In this document: positions 11,125-44,210 of the stretch, piece after piece
Position numbering within the stretch: the stretch's first letter is position 1
How the letters are laid out: each line of letters starts with the position of its first letter
Source: Prochlorococcus marinus str. SB
Lineage (GTDB): Bacteria; Cyanobacteriota; Cyanobacteriia; PCC-6307; Cyanobiaceae
DNA length: 64,000 bases
NCBI RefSeq assembly: GCF_000760115.1
Contig: NZ_JNAS01000002.1
Span: 1,054,001-1,118,000, forward strand
Reading direction: 5' to 3'
Translations under genes and position numbers: made by a program
The notes under the pieces: generated by a model
Database searches by the model: none
Seen by the model: the letters and a program-made list of their open reading frames with translations, nothing else
Told to the model about the DNA's origin: nothing

Positions 11125-11597
11125 CAAATTTTATTGTTTAATGATATTTCTCTAAGCAATAGTAATTGTTCGTTGGTTGGATTTGTTGTTTTATGTATTC
11201 TCATTAAATACTCTAAAGCATTATCTAAAGGTAATTTCTTTTCGCAAATAAGCCATGCCATGCAAATCAAAGGAGATCTTTCTATAGATTGCATACAGTG
11301 TATAAAGGTAGGCCCTTTTTTTTTTATTTCTTTTATTATTTCAATCGATTCAAAAATTTGTTTTTTTGAAATTTTATGACTTGATCTATGATCAGGTAAT
11401 TCTAAATGCTTATATTCAAAATCCACAAAAATATCTGTTGGATGTACATATTCAATCGAATAACATAAATTCAAGATTGCTTTTATACCTTTTTCTTTAA
11501 GGAAATCTATATTTTTTTTATTAAGTGGAGCATTACCCAAAGCTATCTCATTTTGTAAAAGCCAATTGAATATAAACTCTCTTTTAATAGTTTCCAT
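11124..11597 (-). CDS. Dual-specificity-type protein phosphatase
   Basis: A 157-residue cysteine phosphatase. The P-loop is complete as H100-C101-x5-R107 (HCMQSIERS), and D69 in ELPDHRS is a plausible general acid. This is the DSP fold pattern, not the low-molecular-weight phosphatase (Wzb) that usually partners Wzc. Its ATG overlaps the wzc stop as TAATG, so the two are translationally coupled. The likely substrate is the tyrosine cluster of that kinase (inference). Confidence 0.85.
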   Translation of the reverse strand: METIKREFIFNWLLQNEIALGNAPLNKKNIDFLKEKGIKAILNLCYSIEYVHPTDIFVDFEYKHLELPDHRSSHKISKKQIFESIEIIKEIKKKGPTFIHCMQSIERSPLICMAWLICEKKLPLDNALEYLMRIHKTTNPTNEQLLLLREISLNNKI

Positions 11598-13999
11598 TAT
11601 CTATCAAGCCAAGAAATGAAATCTAAAACTTTATTACGAAACTTTTTAATTTTTGAGATTAAAAAATTATCTTTACTATTTTCAAAAGTTAAATTTCTTT
11701 TAGTAAATTTATCTCTGATTTTATTGTCAGCGTAGTAGGAAATGTAGTTTGAATTATATCCATAATTATTTGAATAATTAGAATAACCGTAATACCTATT
11801 TTTAGAAAATGTTTTTGGTTTTTTGATTTGATTAGAAACGAAACCAATAAGTGGTCTGTTAGTTTTCTTTAGCTTGTTTTTTGCAAGTAATGGTAAGTCC
11901 ATGTCAACATTATTTAAACTTACAACCATTAATAATGAATCACAATATTGAGCAATAAGAGTTGAATCTGAAATGCTTAGGATGGGGGAGGTATCTAAAA
12001 TTACATAATCATATTTATTTTCTGATCTAATTGTCTCAATAAATTTTTTCATTGAATCAGAACCTAGAAGCCTTGTAGGATCAGGAGGAATTGAACCTGA
12101 AGTTATGACATCAAAATTATCTTGAGTTGGAACAGATTGTATATATTTTTTATAGTTATCTGAGGAATCAATTAATAAATTAGAAAAGCCAATTAAATTA
12201 TCAAGACCCAATCTAGCGTGAACTTGAGGTTTCCTAAGATCAGTATCAATTAATAACACGCTTAATCCTAATTCAGATATGGTTTTAGCAAACATAGTAC
12301 TTATAAGTGATTTACCCTCAGAAGGTATACAACTTGATATAGATAAAATTTTTAATGAGTTTTGAGTATTTATAAACTTAATAGAGGTATACATTCCTCT
12401 GAATGCTTCTTGATAAAAAAATCGTTGATATCCTAAATATGATTCAGATGATTTCTCATTTTTAGTTGCATTTAATTTATCTTCAACGTTAAATATAGAT
12501 TCATTATTTTCCCTTAGATTAACAAATGATTCAATATAAGGTAGTTCAGCTAGAAGCGGTAAATTTAGATTTTCCTTTACTTCATCTGGTGAATGATAAA
12601 CATGATCAACTTTATCTCTGATTAAACCTACTATTAGGCCGAGAACGGGACCAAAGATTAAGCTAAGAGATAGGTTTAAAGGTATATCTGGAGAAACTGG
12701 GACTGGATAAACTTTTGGAGGAGCAATAATTGACCATGGTACGGATCGTTGAGCAATTTCAAGTTGAAACTTTTCTTTTGCAGATGACAAACCCTCTAAA
12801 TTCTTTGCTGCCAACAAAGCCTTTTGCTGCAGTGTTTTGTATTCACTTATTAACTTAGGTTGTTTTTCAAATTTTTCTTTTAAGGATTTGATTTTTATTT
12901 TTGCATTTTGTATGTTTTTATCTATTATTTCTCGTGCCGAAATAAGTGCAGATATTTGGTTAGATTTTAAAGTTGGCTCTATTTGTTCAACTCTGTATTT
13001 TAAACCTTTAACTATTTCGGAATCTTCTAAATATTTTGTTCTAGCAATTGCAAGTTTTTGTTTCACAAGTATATATTGATCCAATAACTCTAAATCAAGG
13101 TTAATGAATGATACTCCCTCCGTGGGTATCCTTTCGTTTAAATTTAAGTCTGTTGTAATTGCTTGTTTAAATCCATAAGCTGTAAGTGATCCATTTTCAA
13201 TGCTATTTAAAAGATTATTTAATTTAACCCTTTCGTTTTTAATATTATCTAATTCATTTTCTAAATAATCTAATCTTGTTTTCAGTTCTTGTCCTTCTAC
13301 AGTGGGTTCTATAAGTTGATTTCTTTCTCGAAAATCAGAGAGTTCTTTTTGAACTTGTTTGTTCTTTCCTTCTAGTTTAGGAGATTGATTGTTAAGAAAA
13401 ATTAGTCCATCAGATAATCTTTGTTGCTTTTGGTCTAGAGCTGATTTTAAATATGCTTTACTGATACTGACTAACATACTATTAACAATCCTTGGATTTT
13501 CGCCTTTAAAACTTATTCTTAATACTCCTTGAGCCATAGATTGCGTTCTTAATCCTCCAGGAGTGGAAATTTTTAAACTTTTTGAAAACTTGTTGAAAGG
13601 TATTCCATAATCTTTAGATATAGGATTTAATAATATTGGACTTTTTAGTAATTCTATGAGAGTTGGAAGATCGTTGTCTGTAGAATTTAAAGCTAGTTGC
13701 TCAAAAACACCACCAATTGAATTAGCACTATTATTTTTATTATTGTTTAAGGGATCAGATATCAACATAGAAAAGTCACCTATATAAATAGGAAAAAAAA
13801 TTCTTTGAAATATACTAATTGATAATGTTGACGTAAAAACTGCTATTGAAATACTAATAACTATTTTTTTTCGTCTATTAATAGCCTTTAGAAAATCTTT
13901 AAATTCGTATTCCTTATTTCTTATAGAGTTATCGTAATCGTTACCATATGAATTTTTTGATTTTGTATATTTAGAATAGTTATTATTTATATTTTCCAA
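11597..13999 (-). CDS. Wzc-like polysaccharide co-polymerase / BY-kinase
   Basis: An 800-residue inner-membrane protein controlling chain length and export of capsule-type polymers. The Wzz domain begins after residue 30 with a membrane segment (KKIVISISIAVFTSTLSIS). A long periplasmic coiled-coil region (about 190-400) follows, then a proline-rich second membrane segment (PVPVSPDIPLNLSLSL). The cytoplasmic kinase has Walker A SSCIPSEGKS, Walker A' VLLIDTDLRKP and Walker B DYVILDTSP. Nine tyrosines crowd residues about 734-756, followed by an unusual 44-residue basic tail. It diverges from wza-like 14090 across 90 bases. Confidence 0.93.
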   Translation of the reverse strand: MENINNNYSKYTKSKNSYGNDYDNSIRNKEYEFKDFLKAINRRKKIVISISIAVFTSTLSISIFQRIFFPIYIGDFSMLISDPLNNNKNNSANSIGGVFEQLALNSTDNDLPTLIELLKSPILLNPISKDYGIPFNKFSKSLKISTPGGLRTQSMAQGVLRISFKGENPRIVNSMLVSISKAYLKSALDQKQQRLSDGLIFLNNQSPKLEGKNKQVQKELSDFRERNQLIEPTVEGQELKTRLDYLENELDNIKNERVKLNNLLNSIENGSLTAYGFKQAITTDLNLNERIPTEGVSFINLDLELLDQYILVKQKLAIARTKYLEDSEIVKGLKYRVEQIEPTLKSNQISALISAREIIDKNIQNAKIKIKSLKEKFEKQPKLISEYKTLQQKALLAAKNLEGLSSAKEKFQLEIAQRSVPWSIIAPPKVYPVPVSPDIPLNLSLSLIFGPVLGLIVGLIRDKVDHVYHSPDEVKENLNLPLLAELPYIESFVNLRENNESIFNVEDKLNATKNEKSSESYLGYQRFFYQEAFRGMYTSIKFINTQNSLKILSISSCIPSEGKSLISTMFAKTISELGLSVLLIDTDLRKPQVHARLGLDNLIGFSNLLIDSSDNYKKYIQSVPTQDNFDVITSGSIPPDPTRLLGSDSMKKFIETIRSENKYDYVILDTSPILSISDSTLIAQYCDSLLMVVSLNNVDMDLPLLAKNKLKKTNRPLIGFVSNQIKKPKTFSKNRYYGYSNYSNNYGYNSNYISYYADNKIRDKFTKRNLTFENSKDNFLISKIKKFRNKVLDFISWLDR

Positions 14000-21418: not shown

Positions 21419-22681
21419 TTGAAATTATTAAAAAATACAATACTTTTATATATCTTTCGTCTTTTATTGGGTTTTGTAAGGGTTCTTAGTACTAAGGTTT
21501 TTACTACTATTTTAAAACCAATTGAATACGGTAAATTTTCTTTAATAATGGTAGTTATTTCATTATTAACAAATTTATTTTTAAACCCTCTTTATCAATC
21601 AAGCCTAAGCTTGATACCTCAACAGGTTAATAATGCTAAAAAGAACGTCCTGAAATCGACTTTATATACTCTTAAAAAAGAATCAAATATTAAAGCATTT
21701 TTCATAATATTAGCTTTTCTTTTAGTTTTAGATTTCGCTAATATATTGGAATTTAGAATTCATCTCTTTTTCTTTTCATTTATTCTTTACAAATTAACTG
21801 CTGATAGAGGTTTAGAATTGACAGTAATAGATTCAGAAGAAAATTTTATTCTTTCATCGGAATTAAGACTTTTAGAAGAGGTTCTTAAATTTTCGTTTGC
21901 GGGATTACTATTTTTTATTTTTGCTAAATCTGTTGAATCAATTCTTATTGGTTATACTCTAGGTTTTTTGTTGATTATTGTAATATTACAGAAATTAAGG
22001 AAGGGTTATACTAAAACAAAAAATTCTTTGAATGTAAAATTTAACAGTGATATTAAAAACTTCATAAAGCCCTTATACATCTCTGGTTTTATGCTTTGGA
22101 TAATAAATATTAGTGATAGAATTATTCTCGGTTTATATTCAGACACTGCAATTGTCGGCAAATATTCTGCAAACTATGCGATATGCAGTTTCCCTATTTT
22201 GGTTTTGGCTGGGACATTAACTACAATTCTCTACCCTAAATTTTTTAAGTCAAAAAATAATACATATATTTCATATTTTAAAAAAAATATAAAATATATT
22301 CTCCCAATTTACATTTTTTCTTTAATTGGAATTAGTATTTTTATTAATTTTTACGGTTCAACCATAACAAGGATTTTTTTAGGTTCTAATTTCCAAGGCG
22401 GATCTGAATATATTATCTGGCTAATACTGGGATATATTTTTTATGGAACAAGTTTAATCTTCGAATCATTTTTGTTAAAGAGTAATAAAACAAATTATAT
22501 TTCTAAAATTTATTCAATTATATCAGTTCTAAATATTTTACTAACTTTTATTTTATGTTCATTTTTATATGCGGAAGGAGCGGCGATTGCAACTTTTATA
22601 ACTTTTTTGGTTCAATTATTGCTTAATATATTAATAAACTTATCCTTAGGAATTGCAAAAGATACTGCATTAGCAAGTTGA
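21419..22681 (+). CDS. Wzx-type polysaccharide flippase
   Basis: A 420-residue multi-pass membrane protein with 12 or so hydrophobic segments, of the MOP/polysaccharide-transport family. It is expected to flip lipid-linked repeat units to the periplasm for the polymerase upstream. The N-terminus KNTILLYIFRLLLGFVRVLS and the later ISDRIILGLYSDTAIVGKYS fit the family. The only start that keeps the first helix is TTG at 21419; an upstream ATG at 21392 hits an in-frame stop after 8 codons. Confidence 0.85.
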   Translation: MKLLKNTILLYIFRLLLGFVRVLSTKVFTTILKPIEYGKFSLIMVVISLLTNLFLNPLYQSSLSLIPQQVNNAKKNVLKSTLYTLKKESNIKAFFIILAFLLVLDFANILEFRIHLFFFSFILYKLTADRGLELTVIDSEENFILSSELRLLEEVLKFSFAGLLFFIFAKSVESILIGYTLGFLLIIVILQKLRKGYTKTKNSLNVKFNSDIKNFIKPLYISGFMLWIINISDRIILGLYSDTAIVGKYSANYAICSFPILVLAGTLTTILYPKFFKSKNNTYISYFKKNIKYILPIYIFSLIGISIFINFYGSTITRIFLGSNFQGGSEYIIWLILGYIFYGTSLIFESFLLKSNKTNYISKIYSIISVLNILLTFILCSFLYAEGAAIATFITFLVQLLLNILINLSLGIAKDTALAS

Positions 22682-22710: not shown

Positions 22711-23571
22711 TTAGCTTTTAGAAAGCTGTCTTTCTAAAAAAAACATATATGTTGTTAAAGATAAAATTATGGAAATTATATGAAAAATTTGACTTCCATA
22801 AGATATATGAAAGAATTCAAAAGCCTTTGAACCTAAATTTGAATCTAAGTTATTAAAAAAAGCTAATAAGCAAATTCTGATTACATTTATAAAAAATGAA
22901 AGAATTGCTCCAAAACCAAAAATTAAAATATTAATCTTTGGTTTTGGAAAAGGATATATTATTGAACAAACAATCAAAATACTCAAAGTGAATACTATCA
23001 TATCAACTCCGCTGCATCCGTTATAGATTTTTACTCCGCTTGTTTTTAGAATTATTTCATTTGAATTATTTAAAAAAACCCCCTTAAATCCAACCATATT
23101 TAATCCTATCCAACTAGACCATGAAGTCATGTTTACAAAAATAGGATCAAATAATTTTAGAATTACTGGCCTTAATGCATATAGAAAAGTAAAAATAAAA
23201 GATGGGATAAAGATTCTTAAATTGTTAATTTTTTTATTAAGAAAAGCCATCATAAAACTTATTTCCAAAGGTAGCAAATATAGATAATTGTTATTTTCTA
23301 TACTTATAGAATTCAACTGAAAAATAATTATGACTAAAAAAAACAGTGAAATTGCAAAATTGATTTTAGAAATATCTGGATAAAGATTACGTTTTTGATC
23401 TTCTAATGATAAAAAAATGCTAATCCAAATTAATAAGTTAAATAATTGGGTATCACCTGTTGTTTTGAGTTTATAATTTATTAAAATGTTCACCCCTACA
23501 AGAAAAGCGTATAAAAGAAACCAAGCAATAAAATAGGTTTCAATTTTTTTTAAGAAAATATTTAATTTCAT
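22711..23571 (-). CDS. Cyanoexosortase (exosortase family transpeptidase-like protease)
   Basis: A 286-residue membrane protein with about 8 segments. It has the exosortase triad: Cys186 in YNGCSGVD, Arg232 in NVIRICLL, and His255 in FFHISYGS (His264 is an alternative). Exosortases process C-terminal PEP-CTERM signals, probably coupling proteins to extracellular glycan. Its start overlaps the HpsJ-like gene stop as ATGA. The next gene upstream encodes a protein with a PGPLP sorting tail, so enzyme and substrate are in one operon. Subtype (cyanoexosortase A) is inferred from the HpsJ-like partner. Confidence 0.85.
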   Translation of the reverse strand: MKLNIFLKKIETYFIAWFLLYAFLVGVNILINYKLKTTGDTQLFNLLIWISIFLSLEDQKRNLYPDISKINFAISLFFLVIIIFQLNSISIENNNYLYLLPLEISFMMAFLNKKINNLRIFIPSFIFTFLYALRPVILKLFDPIFVNMTSWSSWIGLNMVGFKGVFLNNSNEIILKTSGVKIYNGCSGVDMIVFTLSILIVCSIIYPFPKPKINILIFGFGAILSFFINVIRICLLAFFNNLDSNLGSKAFEFFHISYGSQIFHIISIILSLTTYMFFLERQLSKS

Positions 23572-24928: not shown

Positions 24929-26290
24929 ATGATCTATACAAATTTAAAATCAATAAAACCTACTTATCGAAAAGTTGTTTTCTTTTTGATATTTCTATTC
25001 CTAGATTTATTTTTATTTAAGTACTTTATTTGGATCTGTAAAGACATCGGTAATGTTGTTTTTGAAATTCCAATCTTGTTATATATTTATTCTTCTTGGA
25101 TTTTGTTTAGTTATCTTTTTAAAAGGTATGATCAGTTATCAACAAAAGGCTTCTTTTCGACATGTCTTGCAGAAATTAAGTTTTCGTCTTTTTCATTACT
25201 ATTTATTCTAATTTCTTTTATACCTTTTTCCTTTGATTCATCCATCCTTGCTTCTCCAGATTATTTTTATTTAATTTCATCATTGTTGAAACTTACTTTA
25301 GTGATGTCACTCGTAAAAACGGTTTCTTTTGGAATTTATAAAAAATTTTTTATTGATAAGTTTTATTGGGTTTTTTGGGGCAATAGGGATGAAGTTGAAT
25401 ATCTCAAGAACTTATTAAGTCTTTTAAAAAGGAAAATAAAAATTAAATACATATATTCAAGCGACGAAATAAACAAAATAGACTATCGTTTATGTCTGGG
25501 TATAATTAAAAGCGATGGTGTGAACTATAAAAACTACTCTATTCAAAAAAATACTATAAATAGATATTGGAATACCTTAAATTTAGAAGAGTGGCTAGAA
25601 AAGGAAATTAAAATATTACCTCATGATATTTATATTAATGGAATCAATGAATTTAAATTAACTCTTAATTTATCAGAAAAAAATTCTCTTTTTAATAAAA
25701 TAAACGTTTCAGTTAAAAGGATATTTGATATTGCATTTAGCGTTTTATTATTCGTTACTATATTTCCAATTTTTATAATTATCAATTTCTTAGTTTTGAT
25801 TAATGATGGTTTCCCAACTATTTATAAACAAATAAGGGTTGGCAAGCATGGTTCCCTTTTTAATATTTATAAAATAAGAACAATGATTAAAAAGGCTGAG
25901 AAAAACGGGGCTCAATGGTCAACAAAAAATGATAAACGAGTTCTTTTTATTGGAAAATATTTAAGAAAAATGAGACTGGATGAAATCCCCCAATTAATTT
26001 CTGTTATTCAAGGCAAAATGAGTTTAATAGGACCAAGGCCTGAGAGGCCTGAGATAGAAGAAGATTTAAAATTAAAAATTCATTTTTATAATTTAAAACA
26101 TCTTATAAAACCTGGTATCAGTGGACATGCACAAGTCAGTTATAGATATGGAGCATCTGTATCTGACTCATCTATAAAACTTGGATATGACTTGTTTTAC
26201 ATCAAACATCAATCTTTGTTTTTAGATTTTTTAATATTTTTTAAAACAGTTAAAAGTGTCATTAATATGGCAGGCTCAGAATCTATATAA
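24929..26290 (+). CDS. Polyprenyl glycosylphosphotransferase (initiating sugar transferase)
   Basis: Starts repeat-unit synthesis by moving a sugar phosphate onto undecaprenyl phosphate. The 453 residues comprise four N-terminal membrane segments, a soluble middle region, then the Bac_transf catalytic domain: VKRIFDIAFSVLLF (from about 264), IYKIRTMIKKAE, RKMRLDEIPQLI, GKMSLIGPRPERPE and KPGISGHAQVSYRYG. This WbaP/WcaJ-like type usually transfers glucose-1-P or galactose-1-P; which one cannot be told. Confidence 0.92.
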   Translation: MIYTNLKSIKPTYRKVVFFLIFLFLDLFLFKYFIWICKDIGNVVFEIPILLYIYSSWILFSYLFKRYDQLSTKGFFSTCLAEIKFSSFSLLFILISFIPFSFDSSILASPDYFYLISSLLKLTLVMSLVKTVSFGIYKKFFIDKFYWVFWGNRDEVEYLKNLLSLLKRKIKIKYIYSSDEINKIDYRLCLGIIKSDGVNYKNYSIQKNTINRYWNTLNLEEWLEKEIKILPHDIYINGINEFKLTLNLSEKNSLFNKINVSVKRIFDIAFSVLLFVTIFPIFIIINFLVLINDGFPTIYKQIRVGKHGSLFNIYKIRTMIKKAEKNGAQWSTKNDKRVLFIGKYLRKMRLDEIPQLISVIQGKMSLIGPRPERPEIEEDLKLKIHFYNLKHLIKPGISGHAQVSYRYGASVSDSSIKLGYDLFYIKHQSLFLDFLIFFKTVKSVINMAGSESI

Positions 26291-36115: not shown

Positions 36116-37048
36116 TTGGTAATATATATTAATGAAAGTACTTTTAAGGAAATGGGAATTAGAAATATTAAAAATTTTTCTCAATTTAAATCTTTAGTTT
36201 TCCCTCCAGAAAAATTATTAATTGATCCATATTTAAGTAGGTTCTATAGACCTTTTTCACTTAGATTAAGTTGGTTTCTTTATAGAACAAAAATAACTCC
36301 TAATTTCGTAACCATATTGCAAATAATCATAGGGTTATTAAGTTGTCTATTTATCTCAGTAAATTTATCTAAAGAAGCTATGCTGATTGGCGTTTTAGTT
36401 TTACATTTTGCTTATTTACTTGATTGCGTAGATGGCGAGATTGCAAGAGCAAAGCAGATGGATAGTTTAGAAGGTCTATTTCTTGATAAGTTTGCTCATG
36501 CAATAACCATGCCTTCTATTTTTATGGCGGTAACTTTGCACTATTCTGAATTTGCAATGAATTTAAGTTTCCCACTTTTAGTTGTTTCATTTTTTTCCAG
36601 TCTCTGTACTTTTAATCCTGTTAATAGACTCATAACAACTATTGTTCAGCAATTAATGACAAAGAAAGAATTTAAACAATATGATCTTGAAAAATATCAA
36701 AAAAATAAGAGTTCTCAAAATGAAATTGATGAAATTGAATTTGTTGAAGATGAGTTTTTCATCCCTAACAAAAAGAAAAAAATAAAGAAAATTATCAAAT
36801 CAAGTTTATTTAAATTTGGCAAACAATTTTTTCGACATGTCACCTACCTTTTTTATATTACTATTCTTGTATTTCTGGAATTCATTAATATACCTCCAAT
36901 TATTTTGATATTTTTATGGTTAATTTTGGTTTTATTAGTTATTTCTAAAGAGATCTTAGGCCTTTATCTTGTTCTGTTTAGAAATATTATATTGAAGAGA
37001 TATTTAAAGACCATTTCTAAAACTCAATTTATTTATGACAGTAATTAA
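36116..37048 (+). CDS. CDP-alcohol phosphatidyltransferase family protein with altered active site
   Basis: An integral membrane protein of up to 310 residues with about six segments. The CDP-alcohol phosphotransferase motif D-x2-DG-x2-AR-x8-G-x3-D-x3-D is nearly complete at residues 103-128: D103, D106-G107, A110-R111, G120, D124, but the last aspartate, thought to be the catalytic base, is His128. A charged insertion (about 205-235) precedes the last helices. It precedes the LicD and phosphonate genes on the same strand, so a nucleotide-activated head group is a likely substrate. The start is uncertain: TTG 36116 or ATG 36152. Confidence 0.78.
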   Translation: MVIYINESTFKEMGIRNIKNFSQFKSLVFPPEKLLIDPYLSRFYRPFSLRLSWFLYRTKITPNFVTILQIIIGLLSCLFISVNLSKEAMLIGVLVLHFAYLLDCVDGEIARAKQMDSLEGLFLDKFAHAITMPSIFMAVTLHYSEFAMNLSFPLLVVSFFSSLCTFNPVNRLITTIVQQLMTKKEFKQYDLEKYQKNKSSQNEIDEIEFVEDEFFIPNKKKKIKKIIKSSLFKFGKQFFRHVTYLFYITILVFLEFINIPPIILIFLWLILVLLVISKEILGLYLVLFRNIILKRYLKTISKTQFIYDSN

Positions 37049-37079
37049 TAAAATAAATTCCCGAATTTAGAATATATAA

Positions 37080-38246
37080 ATGAAAAATTATTTTAAAAAA
37101 TTAGGTTTATTCCATTGGTTACTCAATAGGCCCTACAGCAAATTTAGTCGATTTTTCATAGGTTTATTATTTTTTATTATTTGTATAATTATATTTTTTG
37201 ATTTTAGATTAGGGAATCTTTTTTTTATAAGAGTTTTAATCAATAATGATCTGAAAAGTGAATCAAGAAGACTAATTTGGTGCTTAAAGAAGAGTTATTT
37301 ACCGATCTCACTAAAAACAGATATTATGTTTGATTTTTGTAGCGGGCTAAATTTAAATGAATTAAACAAGATAAAGAATGTTTTAAAAAGACTTAAAAAT
37401 TCTAAAAAAGATATTTTTTATGAAATTGATTTATTAAAAATATTAGCTTATGAATGCGATTTTTTAATAGAAAATAAAGATAATATATCCATATCAAAGC
37501 TCTCTAAAAAATTTACTTCACAATATTTAAAAGTAAAAAATTACTTAGAAAAAATGCCAGCTAAAAAAATATTAAAGCCCCACAATAAATTATCTAAGAA
37601 AAACATTGGCATTGATTCATTGAAGGCAAAAAAAGTGCTTTTAGATCTGGCATGTTTGTTTGAATTAAATAAGATTAAGTGGTTTGTATTGGCAGGCACT
37701 TTTTTAGGTTTTATTAGAGAAAAGTCTTTTCTAAGGCATGATCTAGATATAGATATTGGCTTAATGAGTGAGGATGTATCTCTTGCACAAATTAAAGAAG
37801 TTTTGAGAAAAAGCCCCCTTTTTGAAATCTCTAAGATTGAATATCAAAAATACTTTTTAAGTGCTAACAACTTTTTAAATAAACCAACATTTGCCAGAAT
37901 TATTCATAAAAATGGTATTACTCTAGATATTTTTTGGCACTTTTTAGAGGGAAATAAAATTTATCATGGAACATCTAGTATTTTGTGGAAAAATACTCCT
38001 TTTGAATTAAACGAATATGAGGTTTATGGATTAAAAGTGAAAGGACCTAAAAATGCAAATCTTTATTTAAAAGAAACTTATGGTAATTGGCGTAAAGAAA
38101 AATTAAATTATAACTTTCATCGAGATATGATTTCTTTAACCGGGACAAATAACTTTTTAGGGCTTGAATATTTGTTAAGAAGAAAACTATATTGTGGCAA
38201 ATATAATCAAGAAGAATTAACAAAAATAGAAAAATTATTGATTTAG
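37080..38246 (+). CDS. LicD-family phosphotransferase-like protein
   Basis: A 388-residue protein with one N-terminal membrane anchor (about 24-41), a linker, and a LicD-type catalytic domain: GTFLGFIREKSF at 206-217 and the metal-binding HDLDIDIG at 220-227. LicD proteins move phosphocholine or similar groups from a CDP-linked donor to glycans. The gene sits 31 bases behind the CDP-alcohol transferase homologue and 115 bases before the cytidylyltransferase-PEP mutase fusion gene, so transfer of a CMP-activated phosphonate to the surface polymer is the natural inference. Confidence 0.8.
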   Translation: MKNYFKKLGLFHWLLNRPYSKFSRFFIGLLFFIICIIIFFDFRLGNLFFIRVLINNDLKSESRRLIWCLKKSYLPISLKTDIMFDFCSGLNLNELNKIKNVLKRLKNSKKDIFYEIDLLKILAYECDFLIENKDNISISKLSKKFTSQYLKVKNYLEKMPAKKILKPHNKLSKKNIGIDSLKAKKVLLDLACLFELNKIKWFVLAGTFLGFIREKSFLRHDLDIDIGLMSEDVSLAQIKEVLRKSPLFEISKIEYQKYFLSANNFLNKPTFARIIHKNGITLDIFWHFLEGNKIYHGTSSILWKNTPFELNEYEVYGLKVKGPKNANLYLKETYGNWRKEKLNYNFHRDMISLTGTNNFLGLEYLLRRKLYCGKYNQEELTKIEKLLI

Positions 38247-38361
38247 TTTAAGTTGTTTACTTTAGGATTAAATTAAATCAATTTGATTACTGTACTAAAC
38301 AATTTCATTTAAAGCTAAATATGTAATATATTCTTTAATTAATTGGGTACTGATCAAATTT

Positions 38362-39672
38362 ATGTCTGAAAAAATAGTATATGTTGGTATAAGTGCCGAT
38401 ATTATGCATCCGGGTCATATCAATATATTAAAGCAAGCTTCTAAACATGGGAGAGTAATAGTAGGTTTACTAACTGATAAGGCTATTGCCTCCTACAAAA
38501 GGCTTCCTTTCCTTACATATGAACAAAGAAAAGATGTAATAGAAAATATGAAGCAGGTTTATAAGGTTGTGCCACAAGAAACACTCGATTATAGACCAAA
38601 TTTAGAAAAAATTAGACCTGACATAGTTGTACATGGAGATGATTGGAAAGAAGGTGTTCAAAAAAAAGTAAGGCAACAAGTTCTTGAAACATTGTCAAAT
38701 TGGGATGGTGAACTTATAGAGGTAGCTTATACCCCTGGCATTTCTTCTACTCAACTAATTAATGCTCATAAAGATCTTGGAACGACTCCAGATAGAAGAA
38801 GGTCTCAACTTCGTAGATTATTAAACGCTAAACCATTAATTCGGATAATCGAAACTCATAATGGACTTTCCAGTTTAATAGCAGAGGATATTGAAATAGA
38901 AGATGAAAAAGGAAAACATAGTTTTGATGGAGTATGGTCTAGTAGTCTTACAGACTCTACAGCTAAGGGGATGCCAGATATTGAAGCTGTTGACCCAAGT
39001 AGTAGAGCCAATTCAGTAGATCAGATATTTAACGTCACAACTAAACCTATGATCTACGATAGCGATACTGGAGGTAAACCAGAACACTTTTCTTATACAG
39101 TTAAAAACTTGGAGAGATTAGGAGTTTCCGCTGTAGTTATTGAAGATAAAATTGGATTAAAAAAGAATTCATTATTTGGTACAGATGTAGCACAACAACA
39201 AGATTCTATAGAAGATTTCTGCAATAAAATAAGAGTTGGTAAGAATGCACAAGTGAGTGATGATTTTATGATAATTTCACGTTGTGAAAGTTTGATTTTG
39301 GAACAAGGTATGAATGATGCCTTAACAAGATGTAGAGCATATTTAGAGGCTGGCTCTGATGGAATAATGATTCACTCAAGAAAATCAGATGGCAAAGAAA
39401 TTCTTGAATTTTGCAGTCACTATAGAGAATTTGGAGCTGGTAGACCTCTTATAGTAGTTCCTTCATCATTTGATAAAATAACTGAAAAAGAATTTGAAGA
39501 TGCTGGGGTTAATATAGTAATTTATGCAAATCATATGCTGAGGGCAGCATATCCTGCAATGTATAAAACCGCAAAATCAATTTTAGAAAATAAAAGGGCT
39601 TTTGAAGCAAGAGAATTTTGTATGTCTATTAAAGATATTCTAGAAATTATTCCAGGTACAAAAAATGCTTAG
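38362..39672 (+). CDS. pepM: Cytidylyltransferase-phosphoenolpyruvate mutase fusion
   Basis: Two enzymes in one 436-residue chain. Residues 1-135 are a cytidylyltransferase-family nucleotidyltransferase (HPGH at 16-19; TPGISSTQL at 124-132), expected to activate a phosphonate as its CMP ester. Residues about 155-436 are PEP mutase, which converts phosphoenolpyruvate to phosphonopyruvate. The mutase hallmark [10 protein letters not shown] lies at 261-270, with DSDTGG at 233-238. Such fusions are known in phosphonate clusters. The downstream decarboxylase gene starts 8 bases inside this one, so the two are coupled. Confidence 0.93.
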
Positions 39673-40810
39673 CCCAAAGGTCCTAGTAGATTTTCTTTTA
39701 CAAAATAATATTAGTTTTTTTTCTGGAGTACCTGATTCCTTATTAAAGGATTTTTGTGCTTATGTGGATGACGAATTCCCAGAATCGCGTCATATAATCG
39801 CAGCAAACGAAGGAGCAGCAGTTGGACTTGGGATAGGACATCATTTATCTACCGGCGAAATACCTTTAATTTATTTGCAAAATTCTGGTCTTGGTAATAC
39901 TGTTAATCCCTTATTATCTTTAGCAAGTGAAGAGGTATACTCAATTCCTATGCTCTTAGTAATTGGGTGGAGAGGCGAACCAGGTGTTAAAGATGAGCCT
40001 CAGCATATACATCAAGGAAGGATTACTCCTGATTTGTTGGATGTGATGGGTATTCCATATTCAATTATTGACAAAAATTTAAGTCAAAATCAAATTTTAG
40101 AATTGATAAAAAATCAAATTGAAGATTCTTTTGATAATAAAAAACCCGTATGTATTTTAGTTAGAAAAGGCACTTTCGAGACTTATAAAAAGAAGAATAA
40201 TGAATCTATTAACTCTAATTATGAATTAGAGAGAGAAGAAGCAGTAGAAATTGCTACTAAAGAGTGCGAAACAAATTCAGTTATTGTATGTACAACTGGA
40301 ATGCTTTCAAGAGAGCTTTTTGAATTTAGGGCTAATAATCAATTAGGCCATGGCAAGGATTTCTTATGTGTAGGTGGAATGGGTCATGCTTCTCAAATTG
40401 CTACTGGGATCGCAATTAATCAACCCCATAGACCTGTTTATTGTTTTGATGGAGATGGGGCATCATTAATGCATATGGGATCAATGGCTATTACTGGAAC
40501 TAAAAATTTATCTAATCTGATACATCTTGTTTTTAATAATGGTTGTCATGAATCGGTTGGAGGGCAGCCAACAGTTGCTAGCAAATTTAGATTAAGTAAT
40601 ATTGCTAAATCTATTGGATATAAGTTTTCAGAAACTGTATCTGATAAGAAGAATCTTAAGAAAATTATTAGAGAAGCCCAATCAAGAAAGACTTCTTCTT
40701 TTATCGAAATTTTAGTTCGTCCCGGTCATAGATCTAATATTGGCAGGCCAACTACAACCCCAAATCAAAATAAAATTTCTTTAATGAAAACACTAAAACA
40801 AGATCTATAA
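39665..40810 (+). CDS. ppd: Phosphonopyruvate decarboxylase
   Basis: Thiamine-diphosphate enzyme that decarboxylates phosphonopyruvate to phosphonoacetaldehyde, the step that pulls the unfavourable PEP mutase reaction forward. The 381 residues contain the N-terminal [11 protein letters not shown] and [13 protein letters not shown] with the conserved glutamate, [18 protein letters not shown], and the TDP/Mg motif from GDG at 263-265 to NNG at 291-293. It overlaps the mutase gene by 8 bases and touches the next gene. Confidence 0.95.
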
Positions 40811-41941
40811 ATGTCTCAGCATGTAATTTCAGGTTTAGGCTCGATTTCCAAATTGATGAAAATCTTAGAAGATGAGCATGCTAAAAATATTTTAGTAGTA
40901 ACTGGAAAAAAATCTTATTTTAAATCAGGTTCTGCAGAAGCTCTAAAACCCATATTTGATAAGTTTAATGTTTTTAAATTCAATGATTTTGAAATAAATC
41001 CAAAAATTGAGGATGCTATCAAAGGAACTAAAATAGCTAGGACTAACAATATAGACACCATTATTTCTATTGGTGGTGGAAGTGTGATTGATATTGCAAA
41101 GTTAATTTTGGCATTTTTTGCTTATGATCAGGATTTTAAAAAAATTATTAATGGGATTGAAAAACCAAAATTTTCACAGATAAACCATATATCTATACCA
41201 ACAACTGCAGGGACTGGAAGCGAATCAACAAAATTCGCTGTAGTTTATCTTGATAAAATTAAATATTCAGTCGCTGCTGATTTCTTGATTCCAAAAACAG
41301 TAATACTAGATGGAACACTTTGTTTAAGTAATTCTCCTAGCCAAAAGGCATTCAATGGGTTAGATGCTTTGGCTCAAGCAATTGAAAGCCATTGGGCTTG
41401 CGGTAGTACAAAAGAAAGCAAATTTTTTTCGCGAAAAGCAATACCAATTTTATTTAAAGAATTGCCTAAGATTGTTTCTGGTAAAGCAAAAAACAATGAA
41501 TTTCAGGATTTTTTCGAAGCATCTAATATGGCAGGTAGAGCTATAAATATTTCTAAAACTACCTCTCCTCATGCATTCTCTTATGCATTTACCAGTAAAT
41601 ACTTTATACCTCATGGTCAAGCTGTATGGTTGACTTTACCTAAAATTTTTGAAATTCACAAAAATGCTTTGTCTCTCGAGAAAGAAAAAATTGTTAATTA
41701 TGATGATTTACAAACTTCGATAAGTGAAATAATTGATTTGTTAGGCATAAGTCAAAATGATATTGCTAATAATCTAAAAAAGTTTGTTTGTGCACTTGGT
41801 CTAGAACCTAGTATGGAAAAACTTGGAATATCTACAAGAGAGAAAAGGCAGGAAATTGCAAAAAATGTAAATCTAGAAAGACTTAAAAATAATCCAGTTT
41901 TATTTTCAAAGAAAGATATATGCGATGTTTTTAACCTATAA
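40811..41941 (+). CDS. Iron-type alcohol dehydrogenase, probable phosphonoacetaldehyde reductase
   Basis: A 376-residue group III alcohol dehydrogenase. The nucleotide motif is GGGSVIDIAKL (about 92-102), and the metal region includes NGLDALAQAIESHW, SPHAFSYAF and PHGQAVWL. Next to pepM and ppd it most probably reduces phosphonoacetaldehyde to 2-hydroxyethylphosphonate, as the PhpC-type enzymes do. No transaminase for aminoethylphosphonate is nearby, which favours the hydroxyethyl branch. It starts directly after the decarboxylase stop and is convergent with the ligase gene 8 bases away. Confidence 0.85.
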   Translation: MSQHVISGLGSISKLMKILEDEHAKNILVVTGKKSYFKSGSAEALKPIFDKFNVFKFNDFEINPKIEDAIKGTKIARTNNIDTIISIGGGSVIDIAKLILAFFAYDQDFKKIINGIEKPKFSQINHISIPTTAGTGSESTKFAVVYLDKIKYSVAADFLIPKTVILDGTLCLSNSPSQKAFNGLDALAQAIESHWACGSTKESKFFSRKAIPILFKELPKIVSGKAKNNEFQDFFEASNMAGRAINISKTTSPHAFSYAFTSKYFIPHGQAVWLTLPKIFEIHKNALSLEKEKIVNYDDLQTSISEIIDLLGISQNDIANNLKKFVCALGLEPSMEKLGISTREKRQEIAKNVNLERLKNNPVLFSKKDICDVFNL

Positions 41942-41949
41942 ATTTTTAT

Positions 41950-43257
41950 TCAGTTTTCCCATTCAACATGATTTGTTTTCTTTTTAGTATTTTCATCTAA
42001 TATTAATTTAAGGCCACATAATAATATCCAAGAGGCGATACTTAATCTCGCATCAAAATATTGAATGTCAAATAATTGTGTAAAACAAAAAGTAAAAAAT
42101 GATGTCCACCAAGCTTTTTCAAAATTATTAAATTCACTAGATTGGTTTTTTTTATCAAAAACTTTTTTGTATGACATAATCAATAACGCAACGATAGTAG
42201 AAATAAATAATAGGGCGACAGGATATCCATAACTTATTGCCAACTCAAGAATTATATTGTGCGGGTGTCCTTTCCATAAGTTTTGTTGTAATTCATAAAT
42301 AATTGGAAAAGCTCCTGCACCTATACCAAATATTGGATTTATTAGACTTATATCAAAAGCACTTAAAAGGATTTCAAATCTTGTAACTTTAAGATTTCCA
42401 ATCCCTTGACTTGCAAATTCCAACCAAATTTTAGTTGGAATTATTTCCCTGAGTATATCTTGAACATTACCAGAAAAAGTTTGGTAAACGGTTATTACTA
42501 ATATTAATCCCACAAATAGAGCTAAAGGTAAAAGCCATGAAAGGCTACTTGTTCCAACAACTAAAGGGATAGAAATCAATATACATGCCCATGCATTCCT
42601 TGAGTTGGTTAATAATGTCGCAATCCCAACTGTAATTAAAAAAGATATGGAGAAAAACTTACTCAAAAAGGATTTTGATTTTTCGATAACGATTGCTATG
42701 CAAAATGGCCAAATTAAACTTAACCAAGCTCCAGCATAATTCTGGTTATTGAAAAGACCTGTTAATCCATGCTTAGTAATTGGACGCTGATACCACACTA
42801 TTAAACCATTTAATGTCTCGAATGGTCCTGTCCAGTCAAAAAAATATTGACCAAAACCGCTGAAAATCACAGGAAAAGTAGCTGCAATTAATATAATTGC
42901 TGATTTTTTTCTTTTTTGTTCTGAATTTAAGTAAGGCTGCAAACTCCAAAACAACCAAAAAAATGGAAGCCAATTGAAAGTCCCAATAAATGAAAGTTTT
43001 GGATCTAATAAATCTTTGAAACTAGGATTTAAGTTTAAGGAATGTGTAAAGCTACTAAAGATAATCAGTAGACCACATATAAAAAATGATTTGTTCCAAT
43101 TGCATTTAAAATAATTTTTTTCACAAATAAAACAACCTATAAAAGAAGAAATAAGAAGCAAAATTGAGCTAAAAAAAAGTGCACTTGGCAATAAAAATAG
43201 ACCGGCTGAGAAGCAAAAATTACCAACTTTTTTTAATTGCAATTTATTATTATTCAT
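41950..43257 (-). CDS. O-antigen ligase (WaaL-like) family membrane protein
   Basis: A 435-residue protein with about 12 membrane segments. The Wzy_C/O-antigen ligase domain is recognised by LLTNSRNAWACILIS (about 210-225) and the external loop with GIGAGAFPIIYE and GHPHNIILELAISYG. Such proteins ligate polymer to a lipid A-core acceptor or to protein, or polymerise repeat units. I start at ATG 43257 because the open frame to 43302 runs into the tRNA-Arg gene. It is the last island gene on the right. Confidence 0.88.
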   Translation of the reverse strand: MNNNKLQLKKVGNFCFSAGLFLLPSALFFSSILLLISSFIGCFICEKNYFKCNWNKSFFICGLLIIFSSFTHSLNLNPSFKDLLDPKLSFIGTFNWLPFFWLFWSLQPYLNSEQKRKKSAIILIAATFPVIFSGFGQYFFDWTGPFETLNGLIVWYQRPITKHGLTGLFNNQNYAGAWLSLIWPFCIAIVIEKSKSFLSKFFSISFLITVGIATLLTNSRNAWACILISIPLVVGTSSLSWLLPLALFVGLILVITVYQTFSGNVQDILREIIPTKIWLEFASQGIGNLKVTRFEILLSAFDISLINPIFGIGAGAFPIIYELQQNLWKGHPHNIILELAISYGYPVALLFISTIVALLIMSYKKVFDKKNQSSEFNNFEKAWWTSFFTFCFTQLFDIQYFDARLSIASWILLCGLKLILDENTKKKTNHVEWEN

Positions 43258-43270
43258 AAAACTTTCTAAA

Positions 43271-43344
<74 letters not shown>

Positions 43345-43583: not shown

Positions 43584-44210
43584 TTGGCAAGACGTCTTTC
43601 AGTCCAAATTAAAAAAGAAATCTCAAATTTGTTCATTCATGAAAAATTAAGTGTTGAGCAATTATCTAAGAAATTTGAATGTACAAATGCAACCATCACT
43701 AGGAATTTAAAAAAAGAACTAGGTGATGAAAAGTATCAAGAAATTATTGGTTCGAGAATATCTAAAAGGAATTCAATAAACTCCAACAATGATATTAAAT
43801 TCGACCAAGATAAAACGTTATCTTTAAATTCTGAAAAGCAAGAATTCAATTTTGTTGAATTACCTCCTATAGATTATGAAATAGAGAATTTCTCAAGAAA
43901 GGAACTTTCATCTGTCCCAATTCAAGAAATTGAATTCCCTAATGTTGTCTATATGATCGTTAGTAAAAATATTGAATTAGAAATAAAATTATTAAAAGAT
44001 TATCCTGATTGGGAATTCCTCCCAGAAGAAGACTTAAAAAGAAAAGCAATAGAAATACATTTTGATTCAAAATCAGCTAAACGAGCTTGTAGTAAGGAAC
44101 AAAAGGTTATTAAAGTGCCTAATACAGATGTATTTAGAATTGTATCTCCTATCCTTATTTCAAGAGGGATATCAAGAATTGTAAGTGCTGAGAAATTAAT
44201 AGCTCTTTAA
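43584..44210 (+). CDS. Conserved HTH-containing hypothetical protein
   Basis: A 208-residue protein with an N-terminal helix-turn-helix (about 5-50: KKEISNLFIHEKLSVEQLSKKF, CTNATITRNLKKEL), resembling resolvase-like or sigma-like DNA-binding helices. A variable linker follows, then a C-terminal domain (about 85-208) with many charged residues (DYPDWEFLPEEDLKRKAIE). The start is TTG (MARRLSVQ); no ATG precedes it in frame. It is core-like in location and probably a regulator or DNA-associated protein, but the function is unknown. Confidence 0.72.
   Translation: MARRLSVQIKKEISNLFIHEKLSVEQLSKKFECTNATITRNLKKELGDEKYQEIIGSRISKRNSINSNNDIKFDQDKTLSLNSEKQEFNFVELPPIDYEIENFSRKELSSVPIQEIEFPNVVYMIVSKNIELEIKLLKDYPDWEFLPEEDLKRKAIEIHFDSKSAKRACSKEQKVIKVPNTDVFRIVSPILISRGISRIVSAEKLIAL

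Follow-up and report, generated by a model that had tools for sequence, protein, structure and literature searches.

Phosphonates are reported to account for 20 to 25% of marine dissolved organic phosphorus of high molecular weight and to be a source of methane (PMC8931226). By nuclear magnetic resonance, phosphonate accounted for ~40% of cell phosphorus in cultures of Prochlorococcus SB, the sole cultured isolate that met the criteria of the study (Acker et al. 2022, PMC8931226, main text). In Fom1 of fosfomycin biosynthesis, a cytidylyltransferase (CyTase) domain fused to phosphoenolpyruvate (PEP) mutase (PepM) makes the cytidine monophosphate (CMP) conjugate of 2-hydroxyethylphosphonate (HEP), and 23.6% of the PEP mutases counted by Rice et al. 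are fused to such a domain (2019, PMC6697681). A survey in ISME J (2022, PMC9381506) lists a lipopolysaccharide choline phosphotransferase in pepM neighborhoods and, in Prochlorococcus, pepM together with a decarboxylase and phpC. The literature examined does not name the enzymes that attach HEP to polymers. Here we describe a block of five genes, at positions 36116 to 41941 of a 64,000-nucleotide stretch (the window) of the Prochlorococcus marinus SB genome (1,669,823 bases in 4 contigs), which we consider likely to be a phosphonyl-tailoring cassette that would make CMP-HEP and use a LicD-family transferase to put HEP on a surface glycan.

All five open reading frames (ORFs) of the block are open and intact on inspection and lie on the + strand. 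In order, they encode a homologue of cytidine diphosphate (CDP)-alcohol phosphotransferases (CDP-AP; 36116..37048; PF01066, 2.7e-12), a LicD-family transferase (37080..38246; PF04991, 5.9e-5), the CyTase-PEP mutase fusion encoded by pepM (38362..39672; TIGR02320, 2.7e-122; PF01467, 4.2e-15), the phosphonopyruvate decarboxylase Ppd (39665..40810; TIGR03297, 6.7e-141, above cut-off), and an iron-type alcohol dehydrogenase (Fe-ADH; 40811..41941; PF00465, 4.2e-37) that would act as an HEP-making phosphonoacetaldehyde reductase of the PhpC/FomC type. The pepM and ppd genes share 8 bases, the dehydrogenase gene follows ppd directly, and a gap of 115 bases lies between LicD and pepM; promoter-like and terminator-like sites in the sequence were fewer than in shuffled sequence. 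In the proposed pathway, PepM would convert PEP to phosphonopyruvate, Ppd would decarboxylate this to phosphonoacetaldehyde, Fe-ADH would turn phosphonoacetaldehyde into HEP, and the CyTase domain carried on PepM would convert HEP to CMP-HEP. LicD would then move HEP from CMP-HEP onto a sugar hydroxyl of the glycan made by the surrounding gene island, after which a flippase and a Wzy_C-type protein would export and place the glycan; CDP-AP would be a second enzyme, probably also using CMP-HEP.

The fused protein consists of an N-terminal CyTase part (residues 1 to 138, encoded at 38362-38775) and a PEP mutase part (residues 150 to 433), recognized by the Pfam models CTP_transf_like (4.2e-15) and PEP_mutase (6.1e-53). 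PepM scores 407.2 bits against TIGR02320, with a cut-off of 319.55, and the catalytic motif EDKxxxxxNS is present as [10 protein letters not shown] at residue 261. A search with the N-terminal part matched PDB 5x3d, which we take to be the Fom1 domain (the entry itself is labelled phosphoenolpyruvate phosphomutase), at 3.6e-56, with 84 of 135 aligned residues identical (62%), and residues D13, H16, G18, H19, S128, and S129 are retained in at least 95% of 81 sequences. By sequence comparison, then, the assignment of this domain as a Fom1-type CyTase predicted to produce CMP-HEP is well supported, and the activation step proposed by an earlier sequence-only reading of this DNA stands. Variants of the fusion were also seen elsewhere. 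In one Prochlorococcus genome (G094, L052:9110-12788), a PEP mutase with a degenerate CyTase part is followed by what appears, by eye and homology, to be a CyTase-aminotransferase-like fusion, which suggests a transfer of the activation domain from PEP mutase to the enzyme that follows it. Fourteen contigs labelled viral by the collection that holds them (L140-L153) also encode a CyTase-PepM relative, 11 of them nearly full length and with 54 to 57% identity.

Ppd scores 469.5 bits against TIGR03297 (cut-off, 312.5). Fe-ADH reaches 144 bits against the phosphonate-named model TIGR03405, far under its 424-bit cut-off, and its substrate is therefore proposed from gene position. At the metal-ligand positions known from FucO, the alignment places D185, Q189, H254, and H268; position 189 is Q in 48/66 and H in 18/66 aligned sequences. 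To place these genes more widely we used the best 80 of 211 relatives from a scan of named genomes as a set of fused-pepM loci, many of them on short contigs. An Fe-ADH of >250 amino acids begins 1.0 to 3.2 kb after the pepM start in 65/80 of these loci, from many phyla, and at the same spacing in 63/71 loci with at least 3.7 kb of sequence after the pepM start. Given this recurrence, pepM, ppd, and the dehydrogenase with a fused CyTase form a widespread module, which may serve HEP. An aminotransferase was not found in the 80 loci, a weak negative since the query was a fragment of only 99 residues.

It is possible in principle that HEP is an intermediate and that the attached group is methylphosphonate or another derivative, made from HEP by a synthase encoded elsewhere in the genome. 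For marine matter of high molecular weight, the phosphonates mentioned by name are methylphosphonate and HEP (PMC9381506, PMC8931226), and the structure of the SB phosphonate is not settled in the parts of PMC8931226 considered here. Conversely, the five-gene block holds no further tailoring gene (no search aimed at MpnS or HepD was made in the genome), and the fused CyTase is similar to the domain of Fom1, for which HEP is the reported substrate. On balance, we consider conversion of HEP to another attached group unlikely.

LicD carries the GTFLGFIRE...HDLDID motif, and G206, R213, D221, D223, D225, and D283 are invariant in a 12-row alignment. By eye, the protein also has an extra N-terminal region with a hydrophobic, probably membrane, segment. 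With LicD as the query, phmmer gave no match to a PDB chain at E values up to 1. When its AlphaFold model (mean pLDDT, 73) was searched with Foldseek, the best PDB matches were FKRP structures (E, 1e-5), including a complex with CMP and a complex with CDP-ribitol and a sugar acceptor. Together with its co-occurrence with pepM, described below, this modelled fold match makes it likely that LicD is a transferase using a CMP-phosphonate donor, in line with what had been read from the sequence. Proteins that join a LicD-like part to a methyltransferase-like part lie near pepM in Prochlorococcus AG-422-C15 (L061:12527-14233) and Rhizobium Root482 (L134:5314-7089). They have 569 and 592 residues, and their LicD parts, found with our own profile, score at or below the Pfam cut-off. 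In one SAR11 locus (L065, ~11189-11830), a separate methyltransferase gene stands between CDP-AP and LicD. One conceivable product is a methylated phosphonate ester.

The CDP-AP gene is listed with a TTG start at 36116, while an in-frame ATG at 36152 lies near the start of its relatives; judging from the sequence, ATG 36152 is probably the start and the TTG is probably not used. The protein scores 47.8 bits against CDP-OH_P_transf (PF01066; cut-off, 22), and its AlphaFold model (mean pLDDT, 72.5) matches AF2299 with a Z score of 16.6, a root mean square deviation of 4.1, and 213 aligned residues, and DIPPS with a Z score of 15.0. In the family signature D1xxD2GxxAR...GxxxD3xxxD4, the first three aspartates, both glycines, the alanine, and the arginine are present (DCVDGEIAR...GLFLDKFAH), and the fourth aspartate is His128 (numbering from 36116). 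All four Prochlorococcus members of this CDP-AP lineage have His at this position. The fourth aspartate is the likely catalytic base, and its change to Asn nearly abolished the activity of a relative, according to the account in PMC4634129.

These features bear on whether CDP-AP, rather than LicD, is the main phosphonate transferase, using CMP-HEP to place HEP on diacylglycerol or a different lipid and so yield a phosphonolipid while LicD acts on another CDP-linked group. CDP-AP is a same-strand neighbor of the phosphonate genes and, besides one PgsA-like protein (labelled from score and motif), the only CDP-alcohol enzyme found in this genome. The closest solved structures, AF2299 and DIPPS, use soluble CDP-alcohols, which they are described as preferring (PMC4634129), and a predicted phosphonolipid cluster of Nostoc is depicted with a CDP-alcohol transferase alongside pepM (PMC5987646, as far as covered here). 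Against these stand the replacement of the fourth aspartate, though His128 might itself act as a base; the recovery of SB phosphonate in the protein fraction (PMC8931226); and the constant company of LicD, present in 4/4 genomes with a close CDP-AP among the 266 Prochlorococcus genomes described below. We therefore regard CDP-AP as an improbable main transferase. The sequence-only reading had guessed that this enzyme makes a phosphonolipid, a suggestion that the His128 substitution and the protein-fraction result speak against, with a phosphonolipid possible as a minor product; the parts of PMC8931226 considered here are silent on phosphonate in the lipid fraction.

Loss of the fourth aspartate extends beyond SB, as the residue is missing in 14/17 pepM-linked CDP-APs (retained in L066 and L212, ambiguous in L067). 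By comparison, it is retained in 20/20 high-scoring other CDP-APs of fused-pepM genomes (one, in L227, read by eye). Among 20 low-scoring other CDP-APs, of which 19 were readable, it is missing in 8 and retained in 11, and non-pepM Prochlorococcus homologues have His in 5/5 cases. We rejected a phosphonate-specific loss on the basis of these low-scoring members (8/19) and Prochlorococcus homologues (5/5); because control CDP-APs also lose the residue, its loss is a mark of divergent CDP-APs and not of phosphonate use. We can only speculate that the pepM-linked enzymes gave up the base because their acceptor is anionic, such as polyprenyl phosphate, so that HEP from CMP-HEP would yield a lipid-linked phosphonate carrier feeding the glycan alongside LicD. 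This we consider very unlikely, since the aspartate is also lost in some CDP-APs away from pepM and the Prochlorococcus His could act as a base. If true, Prochlorococcus and SAR11 would have a second, carrier-based route to surface phosphonate, recognizable by the transferase pair. In three Prochlorococcus genomes in which a PepM domain was not found (L054, L055, and L056), the genes for a CDP-AP with His at the fourth position, an asparagine-synthase-like protein, and a small protein of the CTP_transf_like family stand in a row, perhaps for another CDP-linked decoration.

We asked how the two transferase genes are distributed across Prochlorococcus. A PepM domain occurs in 9/266 genomes, one cut by a contig end and one with the degenerate CyTase part; G073, with only a CyTase piece at a contig end, was left out of this count. 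By Pfam, LicD was found in 6/266 genomes, and 5 of these 6 belong to the 9 that have a PepM domain (Fisher's test for the LicD-PepM association, 7e-8, the 266 genomes not being independent). With the LicD protein of the window as query it was found in 5/266, 4 of them with a PepM domain. In G014, a different, short LicD lies just upstream of pepM on the opposite strand. Close CDP-APs (53 to 62% identity) occur in 3 further genomes, all with pepM and LicD (4 in total), and weak matches occur in 7 more, in none of which a PepM domain was found. The sequence-only reading would have been undermined had LicD and the CDP-AP homologue been common in genomes without pepM; in these 266 genomes, 5 of 6 with LicD and 4 of 4 with a close CDP-AP carry pepM. 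The genome G075 (67% complete, with no PepM domain among its finds) has a LicD with 33% identity and a Pfam score alone of 20.1 bits, under the cut-off, adjoining a stand-alone CTP_transf_like protein and a CDP-glycerol glycerophosphotransferase family protein. As both the pepM genomes and G075 illustrate, the few LicD genes in Prochlorococcus go with cytidylyltransferases.

Two further Prochlorococcus genomes have the five genes in this order, and a third has the first three, its contig ending inside pepM; because the order is repeated, the arrangement is not due to chance, and the naming of five consecutive genes from sequence holds. Identities to AG-422-C15, AG-469-F22, and AG-349-I11 (the last compared over the first three genes) are 90 to 92% for pepM, 75 to 79% for Ppd, 64 to 73% for the dehydrogenase, 53 to 62% for CDP-AP, and 46 to 57% for LicD. 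Synonymous distances (dS) are near saturation in all five genes (1.2 to 3.2), and the block is thus an old unit. The unequal identities had suggested that pepM was inserted recently next to an older pair of transferase genes, a reading that we rejected in view of the near-saturated synonymous sites. From the sequences, the unequal identities look like a difference in constraint, and faster divergence of the transferases would be expected if the acceptor glycan changes. Two flanking genes were compared, of which ORF 43584, downstream of the block, is much closer in L046 (dS, 0.31).

These data also bear on a passenger reading, in which LicD and CDP-AP belong to a hypervariable glycan island and lie beside the phosphonate genes without being related to them in function. 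The 115-base gap before pepM, the faster divergence of the transferases (46 to 62% identity, against 90 to 92% for pepM), and the tendency of glycan islands to concentrate transferase-type genes are all consistent with this. However, the order is the same in all four genomes with a close CDP-AP, no close CDP-AP without pepM was found in the 266 Prochlorococcus genomes (many incomplete), and both transferases recur near pepM in SAR11, with LicD near pepM also in other phyla. The passenger reading therefore seems quite unlikely.

For SAR11, we drew 297 genomes from a larger group, assigned to SAR11 from L065 (Pelagibacteraceae); the matches listed included 35 pepM regions, which with L065 give 36 loci, and the SAR11 counts that follow apply among the matches listed. 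LicD was present in 10/35 fusion genomes and within 8 kb of pepM in 8 of these 10, with 0.16 expected near pepM under random placement in 1 Mb. Of 17 divergent CDP-APs, 10 lay within 8 kb of pepM (0.28 expected), a subset separated by score from 62 others after the list had been seen; for all 79 CDP-APs, the figures are 10 observed and 1.3 expected. None of these expectations allows for the clustering of such genes in islands. Across the 36 loci, LicD was seen in 8, CDP-AP in 10, and both in 6. Outside Prochlorococcus, LicD lies in 27/77 fused-pepM loci within the sequence available per locus and in 15/37 of those with full 8-kb flanks. A CDP-AP near pepM is rare there (4/77 loci, namely L065 in SAR11, L066, L067, and L092); a further CDP-AP match near pepM, in L121, was dropped as false. 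In genome-wide searches of the 48 genomes behind 50 of the 80 fused-pepM loci (L122 left out), LicD was found anywhere in 29/48, and presence of a CDP-AP gene as such was uninformative, with one carried by 46/48 of these genomes and by 35/35 of the SAR11 genomes.

Several observations weigh against transfer of HEP to a surface glycan by LicD. LicD passes the PF04991 cut-off only narrowly (23.7 bits against 22.6), the TM score of its FKRP match is low (0.31), and LnuA and MenT1, which share the nucleotidyltransferase fold, also match its model at E values of <0.001; part of the FKRP match thus reflects the general fold. Fe-ADH is a putative phosphonoacetaldehyde reductase in which Q replaces one usual His metal ligand, and HEP may not be the final attached group. 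LicD was not detected in 4/9 pepM-bearing Prochlorococcus genomes (two of them <90% complete) or seen in 50/77 other fused-pepM loci within the sequence available per locus, and some of the proximity to pepM may come from the shared location of the two gene types in variable glycan islands. Finally, the main text of PMC8931226 reports SB phosphonate in a high-molecular-weight, methanol/acetone-insoluble protein fraction and its absence from the trichloroacetic acid-soluble polysaccharide fraction. Its authors explain this fractionation by a protein-bound glycan and propose that membrane proteins carry phosphonylated glycans, in a scheme that includes PglC, Wzx, and PglL (PMC8931226).

The block lies in a glycan island with genes for polysaccharide export, glycosyltransferases, GDP-mannose and UDP-glucose enzymes, a Wzx-type flippase (21419..22681, +; PF01943, 3.3e-10), and an initiating sugar-phosphate transferase of the Bac_transf family (24929..26290, +; PF02397, 2.9e-58). 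An exosortase EpsH-like protein is encoded in the same island at 22711-23571 on the - strand. On the right side of the block, a membrane protein of the Wzy_C O-antigen ligase/polymerase family (41950..43257, -; PF04932, 2.3e-13) is perhaps the PglL-like gene product of the published SB cluster. A tRNA-Arg gene (43271-43344) overlaps its listed GTG start (43302), and translation more likely begins at ATG 43257; with its place on the edge of the island, the tRNA gene would fit an integration site. The conserved ORF at 43584..44210 (+), the fourth downstream of pepM, is without a Pfam match and has, by eye, a helix-turn-helix-looking N terminus, and its relatives lie to the right of the cassette or of the Wzy_C gene in L046, L047, and L057. 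In G075, the LicD gene occupies the corresponding island, flanked by relatives of ORF 35139 and ORF 43584, but its position relative to the Wzy_C gene is on the opposite side.

Proposed enzymes for activation and transfer, together in one cassette of a culturable producer, open the way to direct and cheap enzyme tests, and the LicD and CDP-AP pair is a marker to look for in SAR11, the other large phosphonate producer. Compared with the SB cluster as described in the main text of PMC8931226, the surroundings of the block match in their glycan setting with Wzx, PglC, and PglL; that cluster shows a transposase four genes downstream of pepM, where the window has ORF 43584, and CDP-alcohol transferase, cytidylyltransferase, and LicD are not mentioned in that main text. 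The novelty that the sequence-only reading had seen in a complete activation and transfer branch within a glycan island was overstated, since Acker et al. (PMC8931226), Rice et al. (PMC6697681), and the ISME J survey (PMC9381506) already cover much of it, even in the parts considered here: SB phosphonate among glycan genes, CyTase-PepM fusions, and LicD-like genes near pepM are in print, as is a CDP-AP with pepM (PMC5987646). Our literature searches, which covered the main text of PMC8931226, found no published description of a steady pairing of LicD with a CDP-AP without the fourth aspartate, or of a related LicD in the corresponding island accompanied by another CDP-linked cassette.

Among known systems, Pnt phosphonyl tailoring (PMC6697681, as covered here) is similar in having PEP mutase fused to or beside a CyTase, nearby LicD-like phosphotransferases or glycosyltransferases, and a cell-surface target, and the window contains the combination of pepM, nucleotidyl activation, and a LicD-like transferase among glycan genes by which that pathway is recognized. 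The Pnt biochemistry of Rice et al. concerns 2-aminoethylphosphonate (AEP) and MobA-like PntC enzymes, whereas the window has a PF01467 Fom1-type domain and a dehydrogenase in place of the AEP aminotransferase. The window CyTase is 62% identical to the Fom1 domain over 135 residues and likewise fused to PepM, but fosfomycin is a small molecule, while the window block is without a further fosfomycin-type step and has glycan genes around it. The Lic phosphocholine pathway and FKRP (6kam, the CDP-ribitol complex) share with LicD the fold and, judging from the fold match, the placing of a CMP-linked group onto a sugar; the window protein differs in its predicted donor, CMP-HEP, and its extra N-terminal region. 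CDP-AP has the fold of AF2299 and IPCT-DIPPS and shares with them the Gly, Ala, and Arg residues and three of the four Asp residues of the signature, but has His for the fourth Asp. The predicted phosphonolipid cluster of a lichen Nostoc (PMC5987646) is likewise cyanobacterial and joins a CDP-alcohol phosphatidyltransferase to pepM and ppd, yet it is of the AEP type, with an aminotransferase and an NTP transferase, and LicD is not mentioned in the part of that source considered. We conclude that the SB locus would represent an HEP variant of known phosphonyl-tailoring logic, to which it adds a steady LicD and CDP-AP pair, a related LicD that in the corresponding island of G075 accompanies a different CDP-linked cassette, and the loss of the fourth aspartate, not phosphonate specific, in most pepM-linked CDP-APs examined.

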